The translations under genes were made by a program, and so were the position numbers. The notes beneath the pieces were generated by a model. That model did not search any database and had not been told where the DNA came from. It saw only the letters and a list, made by a program, of their open reading frames with translations. A stretch of DNA of 34,461 nt from Chthoniobacterales bacterium (GTDB lineage: Bacteria; Verrucomicrobiota; Verrucomicrobiia; Chthoniobacterales; UBA6821). Shown piece after piece: positions 1-29,406 of this stretch. Positions within the stretch are counted from its first letter, which is position 1. Each line of letters starts with the position of its first letter. The DNA lies in contig JAPJNA010000077.1 of NCBI GenBank assembly GCA_026461395.1, positions 1 to 34,461 on the forward strand. Reading direction: 5' to 3'.

Positions 1-251
1 CGCTTTGCTGCCCGTCTGAGTCTCAGCACGTTCCACTGACTCATCAGAACCTTCTGCCAGAGCACGGCATCCACGGTGCGGGCTTTTCTCAGAAGTTCTC
101 CCCACGATTCCCCCCGTTTGGGTTGAAGCATTACTACAACTGTTATTCCGGCGGCTTTGAGAGCATCCAGATGTTGAAAGATCCTGAGCCTGCTACTGGG
201 ACTGATAGCAGGATCCTCCACCACGCAGAGTAGGGAGAGAGTTTTGTCCAT
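1..251 (-). CDS. Glycosyltransferase, N-terminal fragment (runs off left edge)
   Basis: On the minus strand an ATG at 251 opens a frame that stays open to the window edge (about 83 codons). The product begins MDKTLSLLCVVEDPAISPSS and continues with a segment reading SRLRIFQHLDALKAAGI and then DAVLWQKVLMSQWNVLRL. A short hydrophobic strand, a [S/R]RxRxFQ segment and a 'DAVxxQK' strand are how the N-terminal Rossmann half of GT-B (family 4-like) glycosyltransferases usually starts. This would be a cytoplasmic sugar transferase for surface polysaccharide. The catalytic C-terminal half is outside the window, so donor and acceptor cannot be guessed. It lies downstream of proS on the same strand with a 145-base gap. 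Family assignment is inference from a short fragment. Confidence 0.55.
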   Translation of the reverse strand, partial: MDKTLSLLCVVEDPAISPSSRLRIFQHLDALKAAGITVVVMLQPKRGESWGELLRKARTVDAVLWQKVLMSQWNVLRLRRAAK

Positions 252-270
252 GGATCGGAAGCAGAAAAGA

Positions 271-370
271 TATGGAACTCAGGAACTCAAAAATTAAAAG
301 AATAAGTGAAAGATGGAGTTATCTAATCAACCGATTGATCCCAAAAATATTCCTGAGTTCCTGAGTTCCA
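271..370. repeat. Inverted short repeat GGAACTCAGGAACTCA in proS/glycosyltransferase gap
   Basis: GGAACTCAGGAACTCA at 274-289 is repeated as an exact inverted copy at 354-369, separated by 64 AT-rich bases. A near-identical unit (15 of 16 bases) occurs at 7084-7099, beside the initiator tRNA gene. No T-run follows either arm, so this is not a classical terminator. It may be a dispersed intergenic repeat of this genome. Confidence 0.5.
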
Positions 371-12016: not shown

Positions 12017-13966
12017 TTAGGGCTTCCCTCCAGCTTTCAGCCAGAGCTTCCTTAACTCCTTATCTAGAAGAGAACCCCTGGGGGGTTTGATCGTTTCAAA
12101 AGCCTGCTTCAGGACACGCCTCGCCAGATCGGGTCGCTGTTTGCTTATAAACTCTCCTGCCAGAGGGGCTGTTACCCTGTAAAAAAACTCCCCTCTTCCG
12201 GCGACGCCCTGAGTCCGAAGCTGCTCTTCATAGAACCTCAGGGCAGACTCTGGATCGTTCGCCTTCATCTGAGAGGAGATCACCACACCGGCAGCTCCGG
12301 CACTCAGGTCATTTCTCACACCGAAGTTCTCGCGGATGATCTGTTCCGAAAGATATTTGACTGTATTTCTATCACCGCTTACCTCGGCAAGTCGGGCCAA
12401 AGCCGCCTGATGCTGAGTCTTGAGATCTCTGAATCGTGAAAACTGGCGGATTGCTGCTTCGTGATGGTGCTGGATTTCCGAACACGTTGAGCCTGTGCGA
12501 ACAAGCCAATCCTCCAAGGCATCCCAAAAGAGAGGGTCTTCAGGACAACGCGAAAGCGCGCTCCGCAGCGCTTGCCCCTCGGATAGTGCATCATTCCGGT
12601 GCCGGAAAATCGTCGCCATCACAAGATCCCTTCTGCTCGCCTCACGAGCAACCCGATTCCGGGAGTTAAGGCTCATCATCGTAATGTCATGATCCGTGAC
12701 TGGAGACCAGTTCTTGGGATCCAAAGCTACACCGGTGGCAACATTTTTCTCCCCATGCCTGCCGACATTCAGATCCCAGTTACCATGGTTCTTGAGATAG
12801 CCAACCCAGGCATGCCCCCCATCTCGGCCCTCGCCGGCAAAAAAGATTGTCGGGATTCCAAGGGCTTTTCCAGAGACGGCTGCGTAATAAGCTTGATCGA
12901 CACAGATCCCCCCATGATTCCGAATGCTGGCGAGTGAATACGTTCCACAGGGCCAGACATAACTATCCTTTAATACCCTTTCCTGATCATAGGAAATCGC
13001 ATGAAAAGCATGCGGCGGAAGTTCCCTGGAGCGTGAAGCAGAATTTCTGATGTAATCGAGATCCAAGGCTGCCACAGGCGCATCGACAACAAACTTCAAT
13101 TCACACACATCCAGACGCCGGGGATCCCGTTGCAGTTTTCCCTTTCTGAAGGCATCAACAACCGATGAAAAGATTTCGGAGGGCTCAGACGAACCCTTGG
13201 TAACATCAACAGGAGCTACCTGTCGATGAGGCCATGAATCGGGAAGCGGCTGATCATGCACCATGGCAATAGCCAGTGCGAGATTCTGATATTCCTGCCA
13301 ATCGGTAGGTGAAGACTTCCAGATCGACTGGAAATTGAGCAAAACCTTTGGTGCAAAATCATCCTCTCCGAAGGCATCGGACCACGATTTCCAAAAGCTC
13401 TTGTTCTGTATTGTTGCCTCCACAAAGGAGCCATCAAGCCGACTTATCAAAGTGCCGTTCCTCGACTCGAAAGGTTGCCTGATCAGACCCGTGAGGACCT
13501 GGCCAAGCATTTGAGAATTGCCTGCGAGTTCTTCAGTTACACGATGCTGATACTGATCATACCGGCGAACTAAAGGGGCTCCGGGTTGATGTATTGTGAC
13601 ATGGAAGCGTACCCCCTGGGTTGTTTGTTCACGACTCACCGAGAGATGATGCGACAGCCATCGTTTCGTCACGGAGGCTTCTTCCGATACTAGCAGGTCG
13701 ATCCATTGGTAGAGATCAACCCATCCAGCAATATTTTCCAGCGAGGACGATCCGGAGCGTCCGGAAACTGCTGGTTTCCATTGCAATGCAAGGGCATTGC
13801 CAAGTTCACGATGAAACTCTGCCAGTCGCCCATCCCTAGCGATCCGGGACACGAGGCTTGGATCGGGTTCATGAAAAATATCAATTTGACCGGCAGTGAC
13901 CGATGGATCCTTAAGCAACAGGATCAGGCAAAGAATGAGAAGATTCCGTGCGAGGGGAAATATCAC
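12017..13966 (-). CDS. Exported transglutaminase-like (cysteine protease fold) protein
   Basis: A 649-residue protein with an N-terminal signal peptide or anchor (hydrophobic LLILCLILLL, then a likely cleavage near TAG-QID around residue 26). A transglutaminase-like core lies at about 320-410: the cysteine in RNHGGICVDQAYYAA (Cys355), the histidine in GGHAWVGYL (His385) and the aspartate in NWDLNVGRHG (Asp398) form the expected Cys-His-Asp triad. The C-terminal 200 residues look like a helical, TPR-like solenoid. Members of this fold act as peptidases or cross-linkers, and the substrate here is unknown. Its start overlaps the pilT stop by 4 bases (ATGA), so the two are probably co-translated, suggesting a link to pili or the cell envelope. 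Not a known pilus component as far as I recall. Confidence 0.78.
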   Translation of the reverse strand: MIFPLARNLLILCLILLLKDPSVTAGQIDIFHEPDPSLVSRIARDGRLAEFHRELGNALALQWKPAVSGRSGSSSLENIAGWVDLYQWIDLLVSEEASVTKRWLSHHLSVSREQTTQGVRFHVTIHQPGAPLVRRYDQYQHRVTEELAGNSQMLGQVLTGLIRQPFESRNGTLISRLDGSFVEATIQNKSFWKSWSDAFGEDDFAPKVLLNFQSIWKSSPTDWQEYQNLALAIAMVHDQPLPDSWPHRQVAPVDVTKGSSEPSEIFSSVVDAFRKGKLQRDPRRLDVCELKFVVDAPVAALDLDYIRNSASRSRELPPHAFHAISYDQERVLKDSYVWPCGTYSLASIRNHGGICVDQAYYAAVSGKALGIPTIFFAGEGRDGGHAWVGYLKNHGNWDLNVGRHGEKNVATGVALDPKNWSPVTDHDITMMSLNSRNRVAREASRRDLVMATIFRHRNDALSEGQALRSALSRCPEDPLFWDALEDWLVRTGSTCSEIQHHHEAAIRQFSRFRDLKTQHQAALARLAEVSGDRNTVKYLSEQIIRENFGVRNDLSAGAAGVVISSQMKANDPESALRFYEEQLRTQGVAGRGEFFYRVTAPLAGEFISKQRPDLARRVLKQAFETIKPPRGSLLDKELRKLWLKAGGKP

Positions 13967-15048
13967 TGCAGATTAGGATGAGAGCGCAGAAGACCTTCAA
14001 TACGGAACCTGTCTCGTGCCCCAGCAACCGCATCTTCCTTGCTGATTCGCCGTTCAAGATAAAGCTTTTCGAGCATATCATTGAAAGTGTGCATACCATC
14101 CTTGCGACCTATCTCCATGAGTCCGACGATTTGTTCGAACCGACGATCCCGGATGCAAGAGGCGACCGCACTATTATTGGTCAATAACTCAGTGACCATG
14201 ACGTGATTCTTTTCATCCTCAGAAAGAAAAATTCTCTGGGAAAGAATTGCACAGAGCGTGTTCGCTAATAGTCCGAGAATTTGCTCCTGCTCGTCACCGG
14301 GAAAGTTTTCAACAATACGGTACAGCACACCTGGAGCATCATTGGTGTGAAGGGATGCAACGACAAGGTGTCCGGTCTGCGCAGCTCTGAGTGCCACGGA
14401 GGCAGTCTCAGCATCGCGTATCTCACCTACCATAATAATATCTGGAGCCTGTCGGAGTGCACGTCTCAAGCCTTCGGCAAAGTTTGCCGTGTCGATTCCC
14501 ACTGCACGCTGAGTGAAAAGAGACCGGTTTTTTTCGAAGATGAACTCCACGGGATCCTCGATCGTAACGATATGGCGTTCCAGATTTTGGTTTACCCAAT
14601 CGAGTAGTGAGGCAATCGTTGTGGATTTTCCTGAGCCCGTGGATCCCGAGACAATTAATATGCCGGATCGGCGTTTCATGATCTCGCAAAGCGGTAATGA
14701 AGGAACACCCAAAGTATGGATATCCGGTATAACCGAATTGATCCTCCTTAGAACTGCTCCCTGCCCTCCAAAATGATCATGAAAATTCACGCGAAAGCGT
14801 ACTCCCTCGGAGGAGATGAATCTTGCATCGTGATCCGTTGAGGTCACAGGCACTCCGCAGGCGTTTCGAAATGCAATAAGATCCTCACGGGTAACGACAG
14901 GCGCCTCCATCGGTGTGATACTTCCCGATACCCTGACGATCGGTGGTTCCCCTACGTGAAGAATAAGATCGGATGCCTTGTACTCATGGGCAGCCCTGCA
15001 ATAGAGCTCGATCGATTCCGGAGGGGCATCCATGGATAAGTCGATCAA
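13963..15048 (-). CDS. pilT: PilT/PilU-type type IV pilus twitching ATPase
   Basis: Hexameric cytoplasmic ATPase that powers pilus retraction. The 361-residue protein has the PilT N-terminal PAS-like domain (SDLILHVGEPPIVRVSG), Walker A GSTGSGKS (135-142), the Asp box VTIEDPVEFIF, Walker B IIMVGEIRD (204-212) and the His box QTGHLVVASLHTND. It lacks the N1 extension of PilB/GspE, so retraction-type is favoured. The C-terminal region (QIVGLMEIGRKDGMHTFNDM) is a PilT-like tail, but the canonical AIRNLIRE motif is changed to CIRDRRFE, so PilU-like behaviour is possible. It lies about 4.7 kb from the pilus-like operon and overlaps the transglutaminase-like gene by 4 bases. Confidence 0.9.
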   Translation of the reverse strand: MIDLSMDAPPESIELYCRAAHEYKASDLILHVGEPPIVRVSGSITPMEAPVVTREDLIAFRNACGVPVTSTDHDARFISSEGVRFRVNFHDHFGGQGAVLRRINSVIPDIHTLGVPSLPLCEIMKRRSGILIVSGSTGSGKSTTIASLLDWVNQNLERHIVTIEDPVEFIFEKNRSLFTQRAVGIDTANFAEGLRRALRQAPDIIMVGEIRDAETASVALRAAQTGHLVVASLHTNDAPGVLYRIVENFPGDEQEQILGLLANTLCAILSQRIFLSEDEKNHVMVTELLTNNSAVASCIRDRRFEQIVGLMEIGRKDGMHTFNDMLEKLYLERRISKEDAVAGARDRFRIEGLLRSHPNLQ

Positions 15049-19723: not shown

Positions 19724-20359
19724 ATGTATCGCCCCACTCTCCCCCTGTTACTGAAAAGACTCTTTAATCCCTGTGCATTTCTCTTGTTTTGCAGCTTGTC
19801 GTTGCACTCACAAAATACCACGGGCTTCGTGATTTCAAAGATCGAACCGGCCATTATCACAACGCCTGCGATCTCCTATTCCGGAGGCACCCAGAAGCCC
19901 TCTCGTCCGAAAAACTGGTTGGAAATCGAGGTTACTTTCGGCTGGCAGCCCACGGGGCCAATGACCGCCGCTGACAAGTATGCGGACGACATTGTTGTGG
20001 ACTACTACGTCCTGCTGTCGAACAAGAGTTCATCTTCCCCTCAGGGAACACTACTCACGGGGCAGGTCACTCACACCTCCGTGCCAGCTATGCAAAATGA
20101 CCTTAAGTCAGTCATGTATGTTAGCCCAAGAACATTGGAACGCCTCTTCGACGGGAAGCCTCCCGCCAGCGCCTCTTCAGCAATAGTCGATATCGGTGTC
20201 ACCATCTCCCGCCAGGGACAGTTGGTCGCCCAAAAAAGCCTCAAGTCAGCCGGTGTCTGGTGGCCACAATATCAAAAGACCAGCGGCTTCTTGCTCAGTA
20301 AAAACGAGACTCCCTTCGCATCCCTCAACTCCGACTATTATGAGGCGGTGAAGAAGTAG
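19724..20359 (+). CDS. Amuc_1102-like pilus-associated exported protein
   Basis: A 211-residue protein with an N-terminal signal sequence (RLFNPCAFLLFCSLSLHSQ, residues about 12-30), then a domain rich in beta strands (WLEIEVTFGWQPTG, VVDYYVLLSNKS, AIVDIGVTISRQGQ) consistent with an immunoglobulin-like fold. No catalytic motif is visible. Its place directly before the PilM-like gene matches Amuc_1102 of the Akkermansia pilus-like locus, and the size is similar. It likely acts in the periplasm or at the surface with the other operon products, but the biochemical role is unknown. The assignment rests on gene order plus general features, not on a recognised sequence motif. It precedes the PilM-like gene by 41 bases. 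Confidence 0.65.
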   Translation: MYRPTLPLLLKRLFNPCAFLLFCSLSLHSQNTTGFVISKIEPAIITTPAISYSGGTQKPSRPKNWLEIEVTFGWQPTGPMTAADKYADDIVVDYYVLLSNKSSSSPQGTLLTGQVTHTSVPAMQNDLKSVMYVSPRTLERLFDGKPPASASSAIVDIGVTISRQGQLVAQKSLKSAGVWWPQYQKTSGFLLSKNETPFASLNSDYYEAVKK

Positions 20360-20400: not shown

Positions 20401-22101
20401 ATGGCATCGCCAAAAAAGACCTTGGTCCTCGATCTCGGAATGCAGTCCCTAAGGATTGCCGAGTTTTCTTCGACTGAGAGCGGTGGATTAAAGCTTCTGC
20501 GAGGCGCCCGGAGAGAACTCATGCTCGATCCAGCGCTCGATACATCGCGACCGGATCAGATCCGACTCGCCCTTAAGGACATTCTAAAAGCATGGAGGAT
20601 CACTCGGTCGGATGTCGTCTGCGTACTGCCTGCCCATACGGTCTTCACGAGGGTTGTTCCCCTGGAAGTCCCTGGAGGCTCATCGAGCCAAGTGGCGGCC
20701 GTTGTCGGTTTTGAAGCCCAACAGAACATACCCTTCCCTCTGGAAGAAGTCGTCTGGGATTATGTCGTGATGGGAAATACCCCGTCCGGTGCTGTGAATG
20801 TTATTTTTGCAGCTATCAAAACTGACTTGCTGGAATCGCTCTGCGATTCAGTAGCCTCCACCGGCCTAAATATTACTGCCGTGCTGGTAGCTCCCCTCGC
20901 GCTCTATGATGCATTCCTCCATGCTTCTTCAGCAACTGCATCGGAAACGACCCTCCTGCTGGATATGGGATCTCGGACTTCCAACATGATCATCTCTGCA
21001 GAAGGATCCTTCTTCTCACGAAGCATTCCTTCCGGAGGATTGGCTGTCACTTCCGCGATTGCCAAGGATATCCATGCAGAGCTTGATGAGGCGGAAAAGC
21101 TGAAGATTGCCCGCGGTAGCGTTGCGCTTGGTGCCGGCTTCGAGCAAGCAACCGACCCCATCGAGGCCAATATCGCACGTATTGCAAGACAGACTCTACT
21201 CAAGACTCAGGCCGACATCAGTCGCTCCCTAAGCTACTACAGATCAAACCTCGGGGGAAATGAGCCCACGTTAATTCTTCTAACAGGAGGAATGGCCTAC
21301 CTCCCCTATCTGGCTGAATTCTTCAACGAAAAACTGCAGAAAAAGACCTCTTTCTTCAATCCGATGGAAGACATCGGAGTTGCCGAATCCGCGCACTCCT
21401 TCCTTGAGTCGAATTCCAATAATTTGGGGGAACTAGTGGGAGGGGCTTTGGTATTGACCTCCTCCCCGCGAACCAAGATCAACCTCCTTCCCCCATCTGT
21501 ATCCAAGAAACGATCCTTCGCCAAACGCATCCCTTACCTGGCTGCTGCCGTCCTCTTTTTCCTTGCAAGTCTCGGGGCCTTGTATGGCTTTGCTTTGCAA
21601 GCAACCTCCTTGACGCGTGCCACGACGGCAACGATCGATAAGCAGATCGCCGACCAAACCAGTATATCAAATCGGATTAAGACCAAAGTAGAGAACGAAC
21701 TCGCCATCCAGCAGACGACTGACATCCTTCTTTCTTTGGTTAGCCTTTGGGAAGCCTACCCGAGGATCCTTACCGAACTGAGCACGAAGGTACCTGAGCG
21801 GTATCTCTGGATCACAGAAATCCAACCTGCAGTGGATACTTCTGCGAGGGGCGTTTCTCCCAACAGTAACGATGGCTCCATCAAGGCTCTGTTAGTCAAA
21901 GGGCTCTACCTTGACAATCCCAAGCAGGCCTCAGTGATCGATGATTTCGTCACTTCCCTTCAGTCCTCGGATGTCTTTGCCGTCGAGGAAAAGGAAAAAT
22001 CCAAGATCATCACTCAGCGAGGCAGTCCCAATGGGGAATACTGGGCTTATCCTTTTTCACTCAGGATTCCTCTTCGCAATCCCTTCACTCCCCTTCCCTG
22101 A
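20401..22101 (+). CDS. PilM-PilN fusion (Amuc_1101-like pilus assembly ATPase-fold protein)
   Basis: A 566-residue protein. Residues 1-352 are a PilM/FtsA-type actin-like domain: VLDLGMQSLRIAEF (phosphate 1), FEAQQNIPFPLEEVVWDY (PilM signature), LLDMGSRTSNMII (phosphate 2, 187-199) and LLTGGMAYLPYL (adenosine loop). It then has INLLPP at 360-365, followed by a basic stretch, one transmembrane helix (about 378-400), a coiled coil and a small alpha/beta domain. This is how PilN proteins begin and are built. In classical systems PilN's N-terminal INLLP peptide docks in a groove of PilM; here both are in one chain. It is probably the cytoplasm-to-periplasm link of the pilus machine. Its stop is 4 bases before the next ATG. 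Confidence 0.85.
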   Translation: MASPKKTLVLDLGMQSLRIAEFSSTESGGLKLLRGARRELMLDPALDTSRPDQIRLALKDILKAWRITRSDVVCVLPAHTVFTRVVPLEVPGGSSSQVAAVVGFEAQQNIPFPLEEVVWDYVVMGNTPSGAVNVIFAAIKTDLLESLCDSVASTGLNITAVLVAPLALYDAFLHASSATASETTLLLDMGSRTSNMIISAEGSFFSRSIPSGGLAVTSAIAKDIHAELDEAEKLKIARGSVALGAGFEQATDPIEANIARIARQTLLKTQADISRSLSYYRSNLGGNEPTLILLTGGMAYLPYLAEFFNEKLQKKTSFFNPMEDIGVAESAHSFLESNSNNLGELVGGALVLTSSPRTKINLLPPSVSKKRSFAKRIPYLAAAVLFFLASLGALYGFALQATSLTRATTATIDKQIADQTSISNRIKTKVENELAIQQTTDILLSLVSLWEAYPRILTELSTKVPERYLWITEIQPAVDTSARGVSPNSNDGSIKALLVKGLYLDNPKQASVIDDFVTSLQSSDVFAVEEKEKSKIITQRGSPNGEYWAYPFSLRIPLRNPFTPLP

Positions 22102-22105
22102 ACTG

Positions 22106-23062
22106 ATGAACAAGATCACCAAATGGTTTGCGGGCAACAAGCTGGCAGCCTCTCTTTTAGCCCCCCTGATCCTTGGAACACTCATCCTTGGATTTCTGGC
22201 CTATCAGGCATGGGATGATTATGGAACTGCCTCTGCGGATTATACCTCCAAGGCATCCCAACTGGTGAAGCTCTCGCAAACTAAACCGTTTCCCAGTCAG
22301 GATAATCTCTCCAAGCTTGAAGCAACCATAAACACTGAGCAGTCCAGCCTGGACGCCCTCATCAAGGATCTCCAGAAGTATCAGGTGCCCTCCTTTGCCG
22401 ACATTGGCAAAGCAAAACTCCAGGATCGACCTCAACGCTTTCAGGATGCACTGCGTATCGAGGTGACTAGGATCAAATCACTAGCCGCAAGCGCTGGTGC
22501 CACACTACCACCGGGATTCTATCTCGGCCTTGATGAATACGAAAATCGTCTTCCCTCCCAAGAGGATGTCCGAATTCTTTCCAAACAACTCACCATTCTG
22601 AGCTGGCTAGGCGAATTGCTTGCCACCCATAAGGATCTGATTCTTTCTGAATTCTCTAGATCCACCTCAGAAATGTTGGCGAAAAAGGATTCGCCGAAAA
22701 AAACACCCCCAGCTCTTCCGGGGAAAGTTTCCACCCCCTATGAGAATGCCTGCAGTATGAAGTTGAGCTTTCGATGCAACCAGGGTTCTTTTCGGGAAAT
22801 TGTGAATGCGGTTTCAACGGCACCTTATTTCCTGATTATTGATCAGCTCCTTATTCGCAACACCTCTAGCGAGCCCCCCAGACGCGATACGCAACCGCCC
22901 ACTGCAGCTTCCCCTCTGGACGGAAGCACCCCGATTCAGAGACTCCCAATCATTGTTGGAAGGGAACTTCTCGATATCTCGCTGAATCTCCGCGGACTGG
23001 AGTTCCCTGATCAGGGATCATCCACCTCAACGAACTTGCAACCCAAACCTGAGGCAAGGTAA
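22106..23062 (+). CDS. Amuc_1100-like pilus-associated membrane protein
   Basis: From ATG 22106 the protein is 318 residues, essentially the 317-residue length of Akkermansia Amuc_1100, the TLR2-active outer-surface protein of that genus. It has a short cytoplasmic N-terminus (MNKITKWFAGNK), one transmembrane helix (about 13-34), a long coiled coil (about 38-130) and a C-terminal alpha/beta part (FRCNQGSFREIVNAVSTAPY, VGRELLDISLNLRGLEF) reminiscent of the ferredoxin-like domains of PilO/EpsM proteins. It probably forms part of the periplasmic alignment complex. A longer frame reaching back to 21941 overlaps the PilM-like gene and is rejected. The next gene follows after 7 bases. Host interaction cannot be inferred here. 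Confidence 0.75.
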   Translation: MNKITKWFAGNKLAASLLAPLILGTLILGFLAYQAWDDYGTASADYTSKASQLVKLSQTKPFPSQDNLSKLEATINTEQSSLDALIKDLQKYQVPSFADIGKAKLQDRPQRFQDALRIEVTRIKSLAASAGATLPPGFYLGLDEYENRLPSQEDVRILSKQLTILSWLGELLATHKDLILSEFSRSTSEMLAKKDSPKKTPPALPGKVSTPYENACSMKLSFRCNQGSFREIVNAVSTAPYFLIIDQLLIRNTSSEPPRRDTQPPTAASPLDGSTPIQRLPIIVGRELLDISLNLRGLEFPDQGSSTSTNLQPKPEAR

Positions 23063-23069
23063 CAGGCCT

Positions 23070-24158
23070 ATGAATAATCTGATCATTCGCCACTACCATT
23101 TAGTGCTCTTGGGAATCGCCTCGCTTATTTCCATAGGTACCGCCGTGTTTCTGATCACCCAGTCGCTCGGATTTCAAGACTCTCTCAAAGGGGCCGATTC
23201 CCTCTCAAAACAGGAAAAAATCCCGTCGCCACTGGCCTCTTCGAATGCAGTCGTTGCTATCGAGCATTTGAAAAAGCCCACGCTTTGGAATCCGAGTGAC
23301 AATGGCTCATCCCCGCTGGTCTCGCGTCCATATCTCCTCAAGGAAGGCAAACTCATTGATCCGATGGTGGGTAACGAGCCGCTCTACCCCCCCGTTCCGA
23401 ACCAGTGGCTCATCGATCACCAACTCGACTATACGGATGTTAATATTCTGGATCGTGATCCCAAGCATAAGGGATTTACCGTGCGTGAGGAATTTCTAGC
23501 AGGAACCGATCCCAACAACGAGGAAGAGTTCCCCCCGCTACACACGAAGCTCAATTATGGTGAAAATGATATCCGCAAGAGTAGCTATATCCTGGAATTT
23601 GTGGGTGTTGAAACGAATGCGCTCACTGACTCCAATGGGATCACCGATACAAAGAATATGACAGTTGAGTATCAGTTGAGACCATCTCAACCTCTTCCCA
23701 ATCCATCAAAAGGGAACCGCCCCGACACTTCCGTAAGGGTCGTACTCAAAGGGGAAACCGTACCTGGAGCCCCCTTCCTCAAAATGGTGGACTACAGCGA
23801 TAAGAAAAAAACGATCCATGATACAGAGTATGATGTGAGCGAACTCATCCTGCAAAACACCCTCACCGGAGAGCACCTCACCCTGATGAAGAAGAATTCT
23901 TCTAGAGAATACAGAAAGTCACCCATTGAACTTGTTGAAAGCGTCACCTTCCATTACCAACTCTCTGGCGCTCCTGTTGAGGATGTTACGGTGGAACGGG
24001 GCAAGACCTTCAATCTGTCCGGCTTGGAAAAAAAACATGTAGAAACTTATAAGCTCCTTGATTTCTCAAAAGAGGGGATTCTGCTGAGCAAGGATGGAAA
24101 AAATTACACAATCAAGTCATCCTCTTCTCCATCCCCGAGTCCGAGCCCTTCTCTGTGA
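23070..24158 (+). CDS. Amuc_1099-like pilus-associated protein (PilP-position)
   Basis: A 362-residue bitopic protein: short N-terminus, one transmembrane helix (about 9-31), then a periplasmic region. Residues about 122-150 contain an acidic Asp-rich loop (VNILDRDPKH, EEFLAGTDPNNEEE) like the thrombospondin type-3/dockerin-like calcium loops common in Verrucomicrobiota. The C-terminal half holds beta-rich repeats (KKTIHDTEYDVSELILQN; YKLLDFSKEGILLSKDGKN) and a Ser-Pro tail (SPSPSPSPSL). It sits where pilP lies in pilMNOPQ operons and where Amuc_1099 lies in Akkermansia, so a secretin-linking role is the best inference. Its TGA overlaps the next GTG (GTGA). No catalytic motif. Confidence 0.65.
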   Translation: MNNLIIRHYHLVLLGIASLISIGTAVFLITQSLGFQDSLKGADSLSKQEKIPSPLASSNAVVAIEHLKKPTLWNPSDNGSSPLVSRPYLLKEGKLIDPMVGNEPLYPPVPNQWLIDHQLDYTDVNILDRDPKHKGFTVREEFLAGTDPNNEEEFPPLHTKLNYGENDIRKSSYILEFVGVETNALTDSNGITDTKNMTVEYQLRPSQPLPNPSKGNRPDTSVRVVLKGETVPGAPFLKMVDYSDKKKTIHDTEYDVSELILQNTLTGEHLTLMKKNSSREYRKSPIELVESVTFHYQLSGAPVEDVTVERGKTFNLSGLEKKHVETYKLLDFSKEGILLSKDGKNYTIKSSSSPSPSPSPSL

Positions 24159-26746
24159 GGAGCTTGTCCTCATTAATCCCCCTTCGCATCACAATGACTC
24201 AACCCCTGAACATCTCGAAGATACGCCTGCGAACACTTGTTCTTTCCATAGTGGCTATCAGGTTCATCGTTGGAGTAGCTCTTTCACCTTCATTTGCTTA
24301 CGCGCAGCAGAGCGGGGTCATTGGCCAATCGGAGCGTGAAATCCGGATTCTTCAAGAAAGAAGTAGCTGGGCGCAGACCCAGACTCAAAAAGCCATCACC
24401 GCCATGGCGGACAAGGATTACGAATCCGCTTTTGCTTTTTCCAAGAGCGCCGTAGATGCATTACCCTACGGTGGTGAGTCTTCTGCAGGCTTGCGTTCTC
24501 TGTCTCTTGAGACCTTTTCCAAGTCTGCTTGTGCCTTGGCCAGGCAACGGGTGAGCGAAGGCTACTACGATGATGCTGAGTTGGTGGTGAAAACAGCCAC
24601 CGATAAGCCTTATGCATCGTCTTATGCACCCTTGCTGGATCTTCAGAAATCACTTCGTGACCCAAACCATTTCAACAGGACTATCACTCCCGGATTCGTC
24701 GCCAAGGTGACTCAGGTTGAACAGTTGATGAACGAAGCCGAGGGGCTCTACGCATCGGGTCGCTTCGATGCTGCGTTCAACAAATATCAGATGGTTCTCA
24801 ATCTGGATCCTGAAAATAGATCTGCCCGTCTCGGGATGGAAAAAGTCAATAAAGAGCGGTCTGATTACGCGGAAACAGCCTACACTGAGAGGAGGAGTCA
24901 GATGATCACCGACGTAGCAAGGGCATGGGAACTCCCTGTGCCAAAAATCAATACAGGCGCCACTACGATCGTCGAGCAGAGCCCTATCGATATGCAGGGC
25001 ACCAGTGCCATCAGCCGAAAACTCCAAGAGATCAGGCTTCCTCAACTCTCCCTTTCCGACGAGACCGTACGCGAAGCTGTGGAAAAGCTTCAGAAAAAAT
25101 CACGCGTCTTGGACACAACCGAAACAGATCCCGCCAAGAAGGGAGTGAATATTGTTCTCAAGCTCGATCCGGCCAAGGAAGCAGTCGATGGCGGCACCAA
25201 ACTCAATCTTTCCCTCAACGACCTCCCTCTTGGAGAGGCCCTGAAATATATCGCCTCGGCTGCAAATCTTAAGGTCAAGATAGAACCGTACGCGGTGGCC
25301 ATCGTTCCCCTCTCCGAACCAACAGAGACCCTTATCTCGAAAGAATACAAGGTGCCTCCAGGGTTCATCTCCAGCGCCTCTGCTTCTACCCCAACCGGTA
25401 CACTTCCGACGGCAGGAGTTCCGGGGTCATCTGGTACAGTAGGTAAAGCGGGCGCGAAGGAGTTTCTGGAATCCCAGGGCGTCACCTTCCCCGCGGGAGC
25501 CAGCGCGACATACCTGGCTTCAAGCAGTAAGTTGCTTGTGAAGAACACCCAGTCAAACCTCGACCTGATCGACTCCCTGGTGGAGGTCTCGCTAGCCACG
25601 CCCCCCAGTCAGGTGGAAATCGAGGCCCGCTTTCTCGAAGTCTCACAGAATAATCTCCAGGAACTTGGCTTTGACTGGCTGATGGGGGCATTCCAACTTC
25701 CTGGTGGTAGTGGAGTCAATACCGGAGGCGGCACGGTTGGCAATCGACAGGGACAGGCCAACAGAGGCAATTACCCTTTTGTAAGCCCTGCTGGCCAACC
25801 TGCCGGAGCGATGGCTGTGGATCCACTCGGCAATGTCACCGCAGGAAATGTCACCTCAGGAAACCGAACAGGTTCGGCCGCTGTTACCGCGAATGCATTG
25901 GATGCCCTCCTTTTCGGTTCGCCCACAGGACCGGCGGCAGGCGTCCTAGCATTGGCGGGAATCTTCACGAATCCCCAGTTCCAAGTCGTACTACGAGCCA
26001 TTAATCAACAGAAGGGAGTTGATCTTGTCTCTGCACCCAAGGTGACCGTCACCAGTGGGCGCAAGGCCACAATCAACATCACTCAGAAATTCCCCTACCC
26101 GAAAGACTACTCACCTCCGACTGTTGTTGCGGCCACAACACCAGGACAAATACAGCCTGCGAATCCAGCCACACCAACCTCCTTTGAGACGCGAAATTGC
26201 GGTGTGCAACTTGAAGTGGAACCAACCGTTGGGCCTGATGGCTACACTATTGAGCTCAGTCTTTCTCCTCAGATCACGGAGTTTCAGGGTTTTGTTAATT
26301 ACGGCTCACCTATTAACAGCATTGCTACAGTGTACGACGCAATTTTACAAAATAGATCTATCGGCACTCAAAGGGTTTTTCTTACAGCAAATACAATTAA
26401 TCAACCTGTCTTTAGCGTGCGCCAGGTCGATACTCAAGTGACGGTCTATGATGGACAGACAGTTGTCTTGGGTGGACTCATGCGGGAAGATGTCCAGAAG
26501 GTTCAGGACAAGACACCTATTGTGGGAGATCTTCCCCTAGTGGGATCCCTCTTCCGCAGCTCGAGCAACCAGCGGATTAAGAGAAACCTTCTCATCTTCG
26601 TCTCAGCCGGTCTCCTGGATCCCGCAGGCCAACCCCTGATCAAAACAGTGGAAAATGGAACGGAAATCTCTATTCCCGACGCGAGAGCTGTTGCCTCCGA
26701 GGCAATTCCGGGTGATCCCTCGACCGCTTCGAAATCCAGCCGATGA
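24155..26746 (+). CDS. Type IV pilus outer-membrane secretin, Amuc_1098/PilQ-like (copy 1)
   Basis: An 863-residue protein from GTG 24155, or 850 from ATG 24194. Signal peptide ends near AYAQQ (residues 48-52). Residues 60-240 form helical/TPR-like repeats (EAEGLYASGRFDAAFNKYQ). An STN/N0-N1 type domain follows (about 295-400, GVNIVLKL, LNDLPLGEALKYIA, IEPYAVAIVPL). Then come an N-domain (about 440-500) and the secretin core (about 600-825), with the signature VGDLPLVGSLF at 790-800 and KRNLLIFVSAGLL. Secretins form the outer-membrane pore for the pilus. The GTG overlaps the previous stop by 4 bases, matching the tight packing of the operon; the ATG gives a cleaner signal peptide. Its stop overlaps the next start. 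Confidence 0.88.
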   Translation: MRSLSSLIPLRITMTQPLNISKIRLRTLVLSIVAIRFIVGVALSPSFAYAQQSGVIGQSEREIRILQERSSWAQTQTQKAITAMADKDYESAFAFSKSAVDALPYGGESSAGLRSLSLETFSKSACALARQRVSEGYYDDAELVVKTATDKPYASSYAPLLDLQKSLRDPNHFNRTITPGFVAKVTQVEQLMNEAEGLYASGRFDAAFNKYQMVLNLDPENRSARLGMEKVNKERSDYAETAYTERRSQMITDVARAWELPVPKINTGATTIVEQSPIDMQGTSAISRKLQEIRLPQLSLSDETVREAVEKLQKKSRVLDTTETDPAKKGVNIVLKLDPAKEAVDGGTKLNLSLNDLPLGEALKYIASAANLKVKIEPYAVAIVPLSEPTETLISKEYKVPPGFISSASASTPTGTLPTAGVPGSSGTVGKAGAKEFLESQGVTFPAGASATYLASSSKLLVKNTQSNLDLIDSLVEVSLATPPSQVEIEARFLEVSQNNLQELGFDWLMGAFQLPGGSGVNTGGGTVGNRQGQANRGNYPFVSPAGQPAGAMAVDPLGNVTAGNVTSGNRTGSAAVTANALDALLFGSPTGPAAGVLALAGIFTNPQFQVVLRAINQQKGVDLVSAPKVTVTSGRKATINITQKFPYPKDYSPPTVVAATTPGQIQPANPATPTSFETRNCGVQLEVEPTVGPDGYTIELSLSPQITEFQGFVNYGSPINSIATVYDAILQNRSIGTQRVFLTANTINQPVFSVRQVDTQVTVYDGQTVVLGGLMREDVQKVQDKTPIVGDLPLVGSLFRSSSNQRIKRNLLIFVSAGLLDPAGQPLIKTVENGTEISIPDARAVASEAIPGDPSTASKSSR

Positions 26747-29406
26747 ACAAGCTGCATATCATTGTCATGCACAGCTTCAAACCTTCTTTTTACCCTCGTC
26801 TCCTCCCACTTTTGTTCGTTGCGAGCGTCGTTATGGCCGGCTTCGGTTCCTGGAAACTGAGGGCACAGACTCCATCAGTCGTTGCAGATTCGGAACGAGC
26901 AATCGTTCGCAGTCAGGAAGACCTGATTCAAGCACGCGTACTGATGCAGTCTGCCATGCAGAAATACTCCCAGCACGACCTCAAGGGGGCCTATGCCCTA
27001 GCCGTGGAAGCCATGAAGCAAGCCCCTTCGGGCACCTCTGCCAGTCGCATAAGGAGCACTCTCCTTTCGGACTACACGACCATCGCGCTGGCCTTTGCCC
27101 GTGAGTTGGCTCAGAACGGCCTCTTCACCGACAGCATCGCCAGAAAGTCAGGCATCATGGACGCCAACGGTCTCCCTCTCTCGGCTGAAGGCGTCGCCAA
27201 ATCCATCTTGGACCCTTCCATGAATCCAAGCTCTAAAGCCGCAGTGAAATTTCTCTCCGATCTGGAACAGCCAGGCATCTTTAACAAAACAGTCACCCCC
27301 ACCTTTGCAGCCAAGCGCGAAGAGGTGATCAAGCTTCTCAGGCAAGCTTCCGACCTCGCAAAAACAGGTCGCAACGAACTGGCCCTCAAACAATACGAGG
27401 CGATCCTTCAGATCGACCCCTATAACAACGCTGCACGCCTAGGAATGGAGGAAATCCACAACTCCACGAACAAGTATGCTGACGAGGCTTATAATGAGAC
27501 GCGAAGCAGAATGCTCTGGCAGGTTGATAAAGCCTGGGAGCGTCCACCTCGTAAGTCGAAACAGGGGCGCACGACCGAATCAGTAGGTCGTCAACAGGAC
27601 ATACGGGGAACGGATCAGATCACAGCCAAGCTGAATTCCATTATCATACCCAAAATCGACTTGAGCGACTCGCCGATCAGTGAAGCTGTCGAGTACCTGA
27701 AGCAGAAAAGCGTTGAGCAGGATCCAAACCACAAGGGTGTGAATATTTTCCTAAAGCTCGGCTCACAACCATCCTCATTACTACCTCAGGGTGTGACATC
27801 CACCAATGCCGCCGCTACCGGTGTGTCCGCCCAGCCCAACGCGGGATCAACAGAGCCTCATGTCACACTGGCCCTCTCCCATGTGCCTCTCTATGTAGCC
27901 CTCGACTACATCAGCAAGCTCTGCAATCTGAAGCTCAAAATCGATCCCTACGCTGTCTCGATCGTCCCTCTCTCAGAACCAACGGACATCCTGATCACCA
28001 AAGAATATCAAGTTCCCCCGACCTTCATCCCACCTAAGGCTCTGGATGGAGGGGCGTCTCTCCCTCAGGCTGGGGCTACAGGAGTGGGCGACCCGAACAA
28101 GGCACGCGTCGCGCAACGTCAGGAGGCCAAGGAGTATCTGATTTCTCAAGGGGTGGTTTTTCCGGATGGTGCCAGTGCCAACTACCTCCCCTCTGGCAGT
28201 AAGCTCGTGATTCGGAATACAAGGGATAATATCGATCAGATCGATGCCCTTGTGGATGCCGCAATGGGGGTCGCCCCATCACAAGTCGATATCCAGACGA
28301 AATTCATAGAAATCAATCAGAACAACATTCAGGAACTTGGATTCGATTGGTTGCTCGGACCATTTAGCATCGGAGGTAGCGGCGTCTATGGAAGCGGTGG
28401 TGGTGGATCCAACTCTCTGACTGGTGCGAATTATCCCTTTGCCGGTCCTGGAGGTGTACCTGCTGGCATGAATACCGTGGGCAGTCTCCGGAGTGGTGAT
28501 CGGGCCATCAGCCAGAATTCCATCAGCTCCCTTCTAGCTGGTCAGGCAGGCGGCTCCTTATCTCCTGCCCCCGGAGTCTTTAGCGTGGCTGGGGTCTTCA
28601 CGGATCCTCAATTCCAAATGGTCATTCATGCCCTGAATCAGAAAAAAGGGGTGGATTTGATGGCCGCCCCCAAGGTCACGACCAAGAGCGGCGTCAAAGC
28701 CACAGTCAAAATCGTCAATGAGTTCATCTATCCGCGCCAGTACGACCCTCCAACATTTACTCAATCTCAAGGTGGTGGACAGGGCGGGAATATTGCAATT
28801 GACCCAAAGACGATCCCTCCACCAACAGTGACCCCTGCCTTTCCGAGGGATTTTACAAAACAGGATCTCGGCGTGGTCTTGGAGGCCAAGCCGACGATTG
28901 GGCCCGATGGTTATACGATCGACCTGGAGTTAAACCCCAAAGTCACGGACTTCGATGGCTTTATCAACTATGGATCCCCCATTAATGGCGTGGGATATAC
29001 GGAAGGATTCTTTTTAAATCGTCCTGCTCTCATCCCAGTTTCGCAAACACTCACTACGAATACGATCAACCAACCGGTCTTTAGCGTGCGTGAAGTCAAT
29101 ACCTTCGTGACGGTCTGGGATGGCCAGACCGTGGCACTCGGGGGGCTGATCCGAGAGGATGTCCAGAAGATTCAGGACAAGGTGCCGATCTTAGGAGACC
29201 TTCCGATGGCCGGCCGACTCTTCCGCTCCGATGCAGACCAAAAAATTAAAAAGAACTTGGTCATCTTCGTAACGCCCCGAATCCTTGATGCCGAAGGCCA
29301 ACCGCGTCGCGGCGACACTGAGGAATCTGAGATCGTGACGCCCTTGGGACTACCTCAAGACTTGCCCCAGCCGTCCATGACGTCACCCGCTGTCAGAGGA
29401 AAATAA
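26743..29406 (+). CDS. Type IV pilus outer-membrane secretin, Amuc_1098/PilQ-like (copy 2)
   Basis: An 887-residue paralogue of the preceding secretin with the same plan: signal peptide (hydrophobic LLPLLFVASVVMAG, cleavage near RAQ at about 42), helical repeats (about 60-240), N0/N1-like domain (about 300-420, GVNIFLKLGS, LSHVPLYVALDYIS, IDPYAVSIVPLSEP), N-domain (about 450-510) and secretin core (about 620-845) with LGDLPMAGRLF at 817-827. Its extra region (about 545-590) is a Gly/Ser-rich loop. Eyeballed identity with copy 1 is highest in the core and near SIVPLSEP. It starts in a 4-base ATGA overlap with copy 1, so both are made together. Akkermansia, as far as I recall, has a single gene here. 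Confidence 0.88.
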   Translation: MNKLHIIVMHSFKPSFYPRLLPLLFVASVVMAGFGSWKLRAQTPSVVADSERAIVRSQEDLIQARVLMQSAMQKYSQHDLKGAYALAVEAMKQAPSGTSASRIRSTLLSDYTTIALAFARELAQNGLFTDSIARKSGIMDANGLPLSAEGVAKSILDPSMNPSSKAAVKFLSDLEQPGIFNKTVTPTFAAKREEVIKLLRQASDLAKTGRNELALKQYEAILQIDPYNNAARLGMEEIHNSTNKYADEAYNETRSRMLWQVDKAWERPPRKSKQGRTTESVGRQQDIRGTDQITAKLNSIIIPKIDLSDSPISEAVEYLKQKSVEQDPNHKGVNIFLKLGSQPSSLLPQGVTSTNAAATGVSAQPNAGSTEPHVTLALSHVPLYVALDYISKLCNLKLKIDPYAVSIVPLSEPTDILITKEYQVPPTFIPPKALDGGASLPQAGATGVGDPNKARVAQRQEAKEYLISQGVVFPDGASANYLPSGSKLVIRNTRDNIDQIDALVDAAMGVAPSQVDIQTKFIEINQNNIQELGFDWLLGPFSIGGSGVYGSGGGGSNSLTGANYPFAGPGGVPAGMNTVGSLRSGDRAISQNSISSLLAGQAGGSLSPAPGVFSVAGVFTDPQFQMVIHALNQKKGVDLMAAPKVTTKSGVKATVKIVNEFIYPRQYDPPTFTQSQGGGQGGNIAIDPKTIPPPTVTPAFPRDFTKQDLGVVLEAKPTIGPDGYTIDLELNPKVTDFDGFINYGSPINGVGYTEGFFLNRPALIPVSQTLTTNTINQPVFSVREVNTFVTVWDGQTVALGGLIREDVQKIQDKVPILGDLPMAGRLFRSDADQKIKKNLVIFVTPRILDAEGQPRRGDTEESEIVTPLGLPQDLPQPSMTSPAVRGK

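Follow-up and report, generated by a model that had tools for sequence, protein, structure and literature searches.

The gene at positions 20401..22101 of the window, by which we mean the whole 34,461-nucleotide stretch of Chthoniobacterales DNA that was analysed, encodes a PilM and a PilN in one polypeptide. Both halves are homologous to the PilM/PilN pair of M. xanthus, the fusion is spread throughout the phylum, and the internal PilN-type docking motif is conserved. We consider it fairly probable that the protein is a natural end-to-end fusion of type IVa PilM and PilN in which the motif is docked in cis and the periplasmic domain is paired with the Amuc_1100 product. In classical pili a soluble PilM is recruited by PilN: the N-terminal INLLP peptide of PilN binds a groove of the separate PilM, and the contact is an on-off one between two proteins. 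The fused gene is laid out as follows.

20401..22101, plus strand: PilM-PilN fusion gene, a single ORF of 566 aa, homologue of Amuc_1101 / MUL2B
20401..21453, plus strand: PilM actin-like domain, residues 1-351 (PF11104, VIA-align)
21454..21477, plus strand: eight-residue spacer 352-359 from the PilM C-terminal helix to the motif, residues 352-355 variable
21478..21492, plus strand: internal PilN-type docking motif INLLP, residues 360-364 (conservation, alignment with M. xanthus PilN and the 5eou chimera)
21493..21789, plus strand: predicted continuous helix 365-463 forming the membrane segment and the periplasmic stalk (AlphaFold2 model)
21496..21531, plus strand: basic juxtamembrane stretch after the motif, residues 366-377, net +5, sequence SVSKKRSFAKRI
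21532..21600, plus strand: predicted transmembrane helix, residues 378-400 (Kyte-Doolittle peak of 2.08 over 380-399)
21805..22086, plus strand: predicted periplasmic ferredoxin-like domain of PilN/GspL type, residues 469-562 (model of 436-566, VIA-align)

The initial annotation had described one polypeptide with PilM and PilN, an INLLP sequence at residues 360-364 behind the actin-like domain, and a basic stretch followed by a membrane helix. The single open frame of 566 codons contains all of these at the positions claimed. Where a coiled coil had been proposed after the basic stretch, the AlphaFold2 model has one long helix, and the terminal ferredoxin-like domain (about 469-562) had been absent from that description. 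According to the positive-inside rule, the PilM side of the transmembrane helix should be cytoplasmic. The GC3 across the seam (0.55 versus 0.595) is uninformative on a recent joining.

The PilM half was identified with profiles and structures. The Pfam family PilM_2 (PF11104) matches residues 10-339 with 96.7 bits against a cut-off of 27, and at E<=0.01 it matches all members of two alignments, one of 30 members (A1) and one of 78 family members (A2), most of which belong to the same order as the window. The subfamily cut-off of TIGR01175 (PilM) was missed (105.4 bits versus 133, E 3e-30). In VIA-align the PilM part of the predicted model matches 2ych_A (Z 34.1, rmsd 3.0, 324 aligned) and 3jc8_Ma (Z 33.1, rmsd 3.4, 337 aligned). 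When the A2 profile was compared with the PDB sequences, its positions 1-350 corresponded to residues 36-389 of the 395 residues of M. xanthus PilM (E 1.3e-59), and further along the same chain 356-481 corresponded to residues 3-128 of M. xanthus PilN (E 2.2e-7). This leaves some six residues at the tail of PilM and some two at the head of PilN without a match, so that the two proteins are joined almost end to end.

For the PilN half, a profile of 30 phylum-wide rows covering this half alone (A4) matched M. xanthus PilN (3jc8_Na) from its N-terminus with E 4.8e-15 and with the INLLP motifs aligned, so that homology to PilN was found over the motif, the membrane helix and the stalk. The motif [IVL]NLxP does not stand at a free PilN N-terminus here; it is internal, at 360-364. 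Pfam PilN (PF05137) had no match in the window protein, and at E<=0.01 it recognised five of the 30 proteins in A1, with a best E of 7.1e-5, and not one of the 78 in A2. E. coli HofN itself found no match among the PDB sequences at E<=0.01.

Residues 436-566 were modelled separately (pLDDT 84.3). In VIA-align, where rows within 1 Z of each other are tied and Z values of 6-9.5 are moderate, the C-terminal domain best matches the periplasmic domains of GspL proteins, namely PulL 5hl8_A (Z 9.5, rmsd 2.7, 80 aligned), XcpY 5n7l (Z 9.0, rmsd 2.5, 79 aligned) and EpsL 2w7v_A (Z 8.3, rmsd 3.1, 81 aligned). PilO 2rjz (Z 8.7, rmsd 4.5, 100 aligned) and T. thermophilus PilN 4bhq_B (Z 6.0, rmsd 3.5, 74 aligned) are matched too, and an unrelated protein, a circularly permuted ribosomal protein S6, scores as high as Z 8.0. 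Foldseek alone gave nothing for the periplasmic domain at E<=0.001, so the predicted ferredoxin fold rests on VIA-align.

The docking motif is conserved in a characteristic way. The phylum and class searches supplied 60 proteins for alignment; all 60 have L362 and P364, 48 have N at position 361 and 39 have L at position 363. The motif pattern was matched near the junction in 54 of these proteins; in the remaining six, L-x-P is kept and the change is at 361 or 363. Within A2, L362 is found in 78 of 78 rows, P364 in 72 and N361 in 59. Since residue 363 is free and often Arg, the kept unit is [IVL]-[ND]-L-x-P and not strict INLLP. In A4, L362 and P364 are the sole invariant columns of the whole PilN half, which argues that the tethered motif is under selection. 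Of the 78 A2 rows, 36 have R and 24 have L at residue 363, and the motif in the window's order often reads (L/I)NLRP. With Arg usual at 363 and P364 lost in six of the 78 rows, part of the classical motif is relaxed.

The spacing from G347 to L362 is 14 residues in 75 of 78 A2 rows and in 26 of 30 A1 rows. A constant spacer length was considered as an argument for cis docking and dropped, because equally variable control windows were often as constant (12 of 27 in A2 and 29 of 38 in A1, the spacer itself counted in). At the other end of the chain, the N-terminus up to query position 6 mostly amounts to just six residues in the verrucomicrobial proteins (66 of 78 A2 rows). In Pseudomonas, PilN binding reportedly opposes a PilM dimerisation that runs via the PilM N-terminus; judged from its length in the alignment, the short verrucomicrobial N-terminus is perhaps too small for such an arm competing with PilN.

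The gene lies in a pilus locus of the Akkermansia type.

13963-15048, minus strand: PilT/PilU-family retraction ATPase near the locus, over its cut-off
19724..20359, plus strand: Amuc_1102-family gene (NF042424, 103.6 bits versus cut-off 55)
22112..23062, plus strand: Amuc_1100-family gene, presumed partner in the PilO position (NF038287, E 2.5e-40, below cut-off)
23070..24158, plus strand: Amuc_1099-family gene (NF042425, 139 bits versus cut-off 50)
24155..26746, plus strand: Amuc_1098-family secretin, first copy (NF042912, 774.5 bits versus cut-off 750)
26743..29406, plus strand: Amuc_1098-family secretin, second copy (NF042912, 750.7 bits versus cut-off 750)

All five families are thus present within the window in the order Amuc_1102-1101-1100-1099-1098. 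The fused protein itself matches NF045709, the Amuc_1101 model, with 463.7 bits (E 1.2e-138), under the equivalog cut-off of 650. The Amuc_1100-family gene has a weak GspM match (E 3.2e-4), and its product found no match among the PDB sequences at E<=0.1. The two tandem secretin genes overlap at their ends, and two copies apparently occur in several relatives as well. Relatives of the neighbours were searched by tblastn (E<=1e-3) at the 39 loci with full flanks from the best 80, and were found at 34 (Amuc_1102), 32 (Amuc_1100) and 35 (Amuc_1099) of these.

Genes of the PilT, PilB/GspE, PilC/GspF and secretin types are all present in the window's genome, which contains six T2SSE matches, two frames with GspF/PilC domains and three secretins. 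It has one PilM_2 protein and no second copy, and no PilN match over the cut-off was found in it. At another locus (L002:400-2923, G000 contig C77) a 439-residue protein matches PilN weakly and PilM_2 not at all; it is followed by a GspM-like gene and a 216-residue gene, and a secretin lies further along the same contig. This second system is possibly a T2SS with a reduced GspL.

The initial annotation had asked how widespread the fusion is in the phylum. At E<=0.001, PF11104 has a match in 272 of the 288 genomes of the phylum, and 148 of its best 150 matches belong to frames 500 codons long or longer, the two short ones having 404 (at a contig end) and 334 codons. The Amuc_1101 model NF045709 matches 276 of the 288 genomes, 29 of them over its cut-off, and the weakest of these matches need not be true members; the best are unbroken frames covering up to all 608 model positions. 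All 30 A1 members are matched by the same model. Within its own class the window protein matches 93 of 113 genomes at E<=0.001. In a contig scan of the best 80 loci, mostly labelled Verrucomicrobiota, 79 carry a single frame of 520 residues or more, and the remaining one is cut by a contig end. The fusion is thus the norm in the phylum and no unusual exception, and PilM-PilN fusions as a kind are already in print. Two genomes of the same family, from the nearest sister genus (G280 and G350), gave weak piecewise matches (E 3.7e-21 and 2.9e-15), and G280 has no PilM_2 match; in this genus the gene may be decaying or diverging. Two contigs labelled Proteobacteria and Betaproteobacteria (L069 and L132) carry the protein at 61% and 31% identity, and these genomes are probably mislabelled.

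Among the nearest known proteins is Amuc_1101 (MUL2B) of Akkermansia muciniphila, the protein of NF045709, with the same gene order and homology over the full length. Its labels in the papers searched are FtsA or PilM and not PilM-PilN: it is called FtsA (PMC5332112, PMC6828834), a PilM protein (PMC13174399), or is named only as part of the pili cluster (PMC10688800, PMC7459334), and the word PilN is absent from all five. The products of Amuc_1098-1102, Amuc_1101 included, were reported there to be at least ten-fold enriched in the membrane or envelope fraction of Akkermansia (PMC5332112). This agrees with the proposal of the initial annotation that PilM is membrane-linked, for which the predicted transmembrane helix in the same chain speaks as well.

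The same architecture, a cytoplasmic actin-like domain, one transmembrane helix and a periplasmic ferredoxin domain, is found in GspL/PulL/EpsL/XcpY of the T2SS. By sequence the window protein is a PilM (3e-30) and not a GspL (3e-4; TIGR01709 20 bits versus cut-off 65), and in the one GspL inspected by eye, that of E. coli K-12, no [IVL]NLxP precedes the membrane helix. In Clostridioides difficile, PilM and PilN are fused in one T4aP protein, PilMN (PMC6916266); the likeness to the window fusion is one of description, C. difficile is a monoderm without a secretin, and in the same text the monoderm PilN is said to use perhaps a different, C-terminal motif for PilM. A similar chain layout is found in the engineered P. 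aeruginosa PilM:PilN(1-12) of 5eou, in which PilM is followed by the PilN peptide in one chain with a spacing within one residue of ours; it is artificial and is without membrane helix or periplasmic domain. This chimera and the T. thermophilus PilM with a PilN peptide are reported to reveal a PilM pocket for the conserved N-terminal motif of PilN (PMC5805733). Separate chains and a free PilN N-terminus are found in M. xanthus 3jc8, in T. thermophilus 2ych/4bhq and in E. coli HofM/HofN, where HofM ends three residues past GLALG and HofN starts with MNPPINFLPW.

The AlphaFold2 monomer of the window protein has a mean pLDDT of 88.1 and a pTM of 0.70, with values of 81 and 90 for the ten-residue blocks at the motif. 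It predicts a helix at 343-352, a coil at 353-364 and the long helix from 365 onwards. Residues 5..365 of the model align with 10..366 of 5eou_B, the ATP-bound chimera (Z 31.1, rmsd 3.8, 344 aligned of 352), in a VIA-align comparison that gives range ends and not contacts between motif and groove, AlphaFold2 moreover being a program that may have learned 5eou. From the alignment and a three-residue numbering offset we infer that the INLLP of the chimera lies at 361-365 in 5eou_B, so the aligned range ends in the register of the motif. Between the Gly of PilM and the Leu of the motif the chimera has 15 residues and the natural proteins have 14. The initial annotation had left open whether the tethered peptide docks in cis or is swapped between neighbours. 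The monomer model does not visibly place the motif away from the groove and follows 5eou_B to the motif end, which favours cis docking as far as a range end can, and the crystal of one chimera cannot by itself separate the two arrangements.

If the motifs were swapped, each would lie in the groove of the next PilM, and the fusion would close the cytoplasmic PilM ring into a chain. We regard this as unlikely, though a serious competitor, because the model follows the chimera's own chain path to the motif, because the spacer of eight residues is short, and because the chimera is reportedly monomeric in solution. The conserved motif and groove would serve swapped and cis docking equally, and PilM/PilN rings have been proposed in two papers, as a dodecamer (PMC8389850) and as a six-fold PilMNO assembly from AlphaFold3 (PMC13039148). 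Less probable still is that the motif is a hinge or relic whose Leu and Pro shape the turn into the membrane helix, the groove being empty or used by another partner. The freedom of residue 363 and the occasional loss of P364 would suit such a role, whereas L362 is invariant in both sets of proteins and N361 is retained in most of them, a pattern of PilN and not of a generic helix N-cap.

An internal start near the junction that also yields free PilN appears very improbable. The window does contain a stretch GGGAGGGG that precedes the in-frame TTG of codon 352 by eight bases; across the family, however, in-frame junction starts with a Shine-Dalgarno-like stretch number three of 30 (A1) and five of 78 (A2) versus control means of 2.3 and 6.0, and in the absence of any enrichment at the junction the idea of a dual product was rejected. 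A frameshift or a sequencing or assembly error near 21460-21500, which might have joined two genes, is excluded by the fused frames throughout the phylum, and no point in its favour was found. The cis-docked fusion remains our preferred reading.

For the cis-docked fusion the following course of events can be proposed. The PilM actin-like domain would sit in the cytoplasm, and eight residues past its last helix the motif [IVL]-N-L-x-P would fold back into the PilN groove of its own PilM. The chain would then turn straight into the continuous helix crossing the inner membrane, which would end in the PilN/GspL-like ferredoxin domain pairing with the PilO-like Amuc_1100 product. Recruitment of PilM would be built in, and since PilM would be tethered by a membrane helix in the same chain, it could not leave the membrane. 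The contact between PilM and PilN would be a one-to-one hinge or strut inside one chain instead of an on-off contact. With the ATPase bound to PilM inside, a movement of PilM driven by nucleotide or ATPase might be passed through the groove-held turn to the periplasmic ring. GspL is thought to pass such movement to the periplasmic side.

A PilM-PilN fusion is known in kind from GspL/PulL and from C. difficile PilMN. What is apparently new and, within the literature searched, undescribed in this family is the PilN half, the phylum-wide spread and the kept docking motif of PilN type. Among the publications found on PilM/PilN in connection with fusion or Verrucomicrobia, no title or opening of an abstract describes this fusion; Davey 2023 and Hughes 2025, which deal with the locus, may do so.

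For the phylum as a whole we tentatively suggest that the type IVa platform is built on a permanently tethered PilM-PilN with its peptide under selection, an independent GspL-like solution with a PilN-type lock. If this is true, the pilus could do without PilM leaving the membrane and without competition for the groove that receives PilN, and what has been proposed as an on-off PilM-PilN switch in Pseudomonas would have become an intramolecular hinge. With the fusion, the PilN so far lacking from the Akkermansia-type pilus locus, to which the much-studied Amuc_1100 belongs, is identified, and Amuc_1100 would take the PilO position. The phylum also holds a natural counterpart of the crystallographers' chimera, so that whether PilM and PilN need to separate for pili to work becomes a question testable via the two conserved residues.
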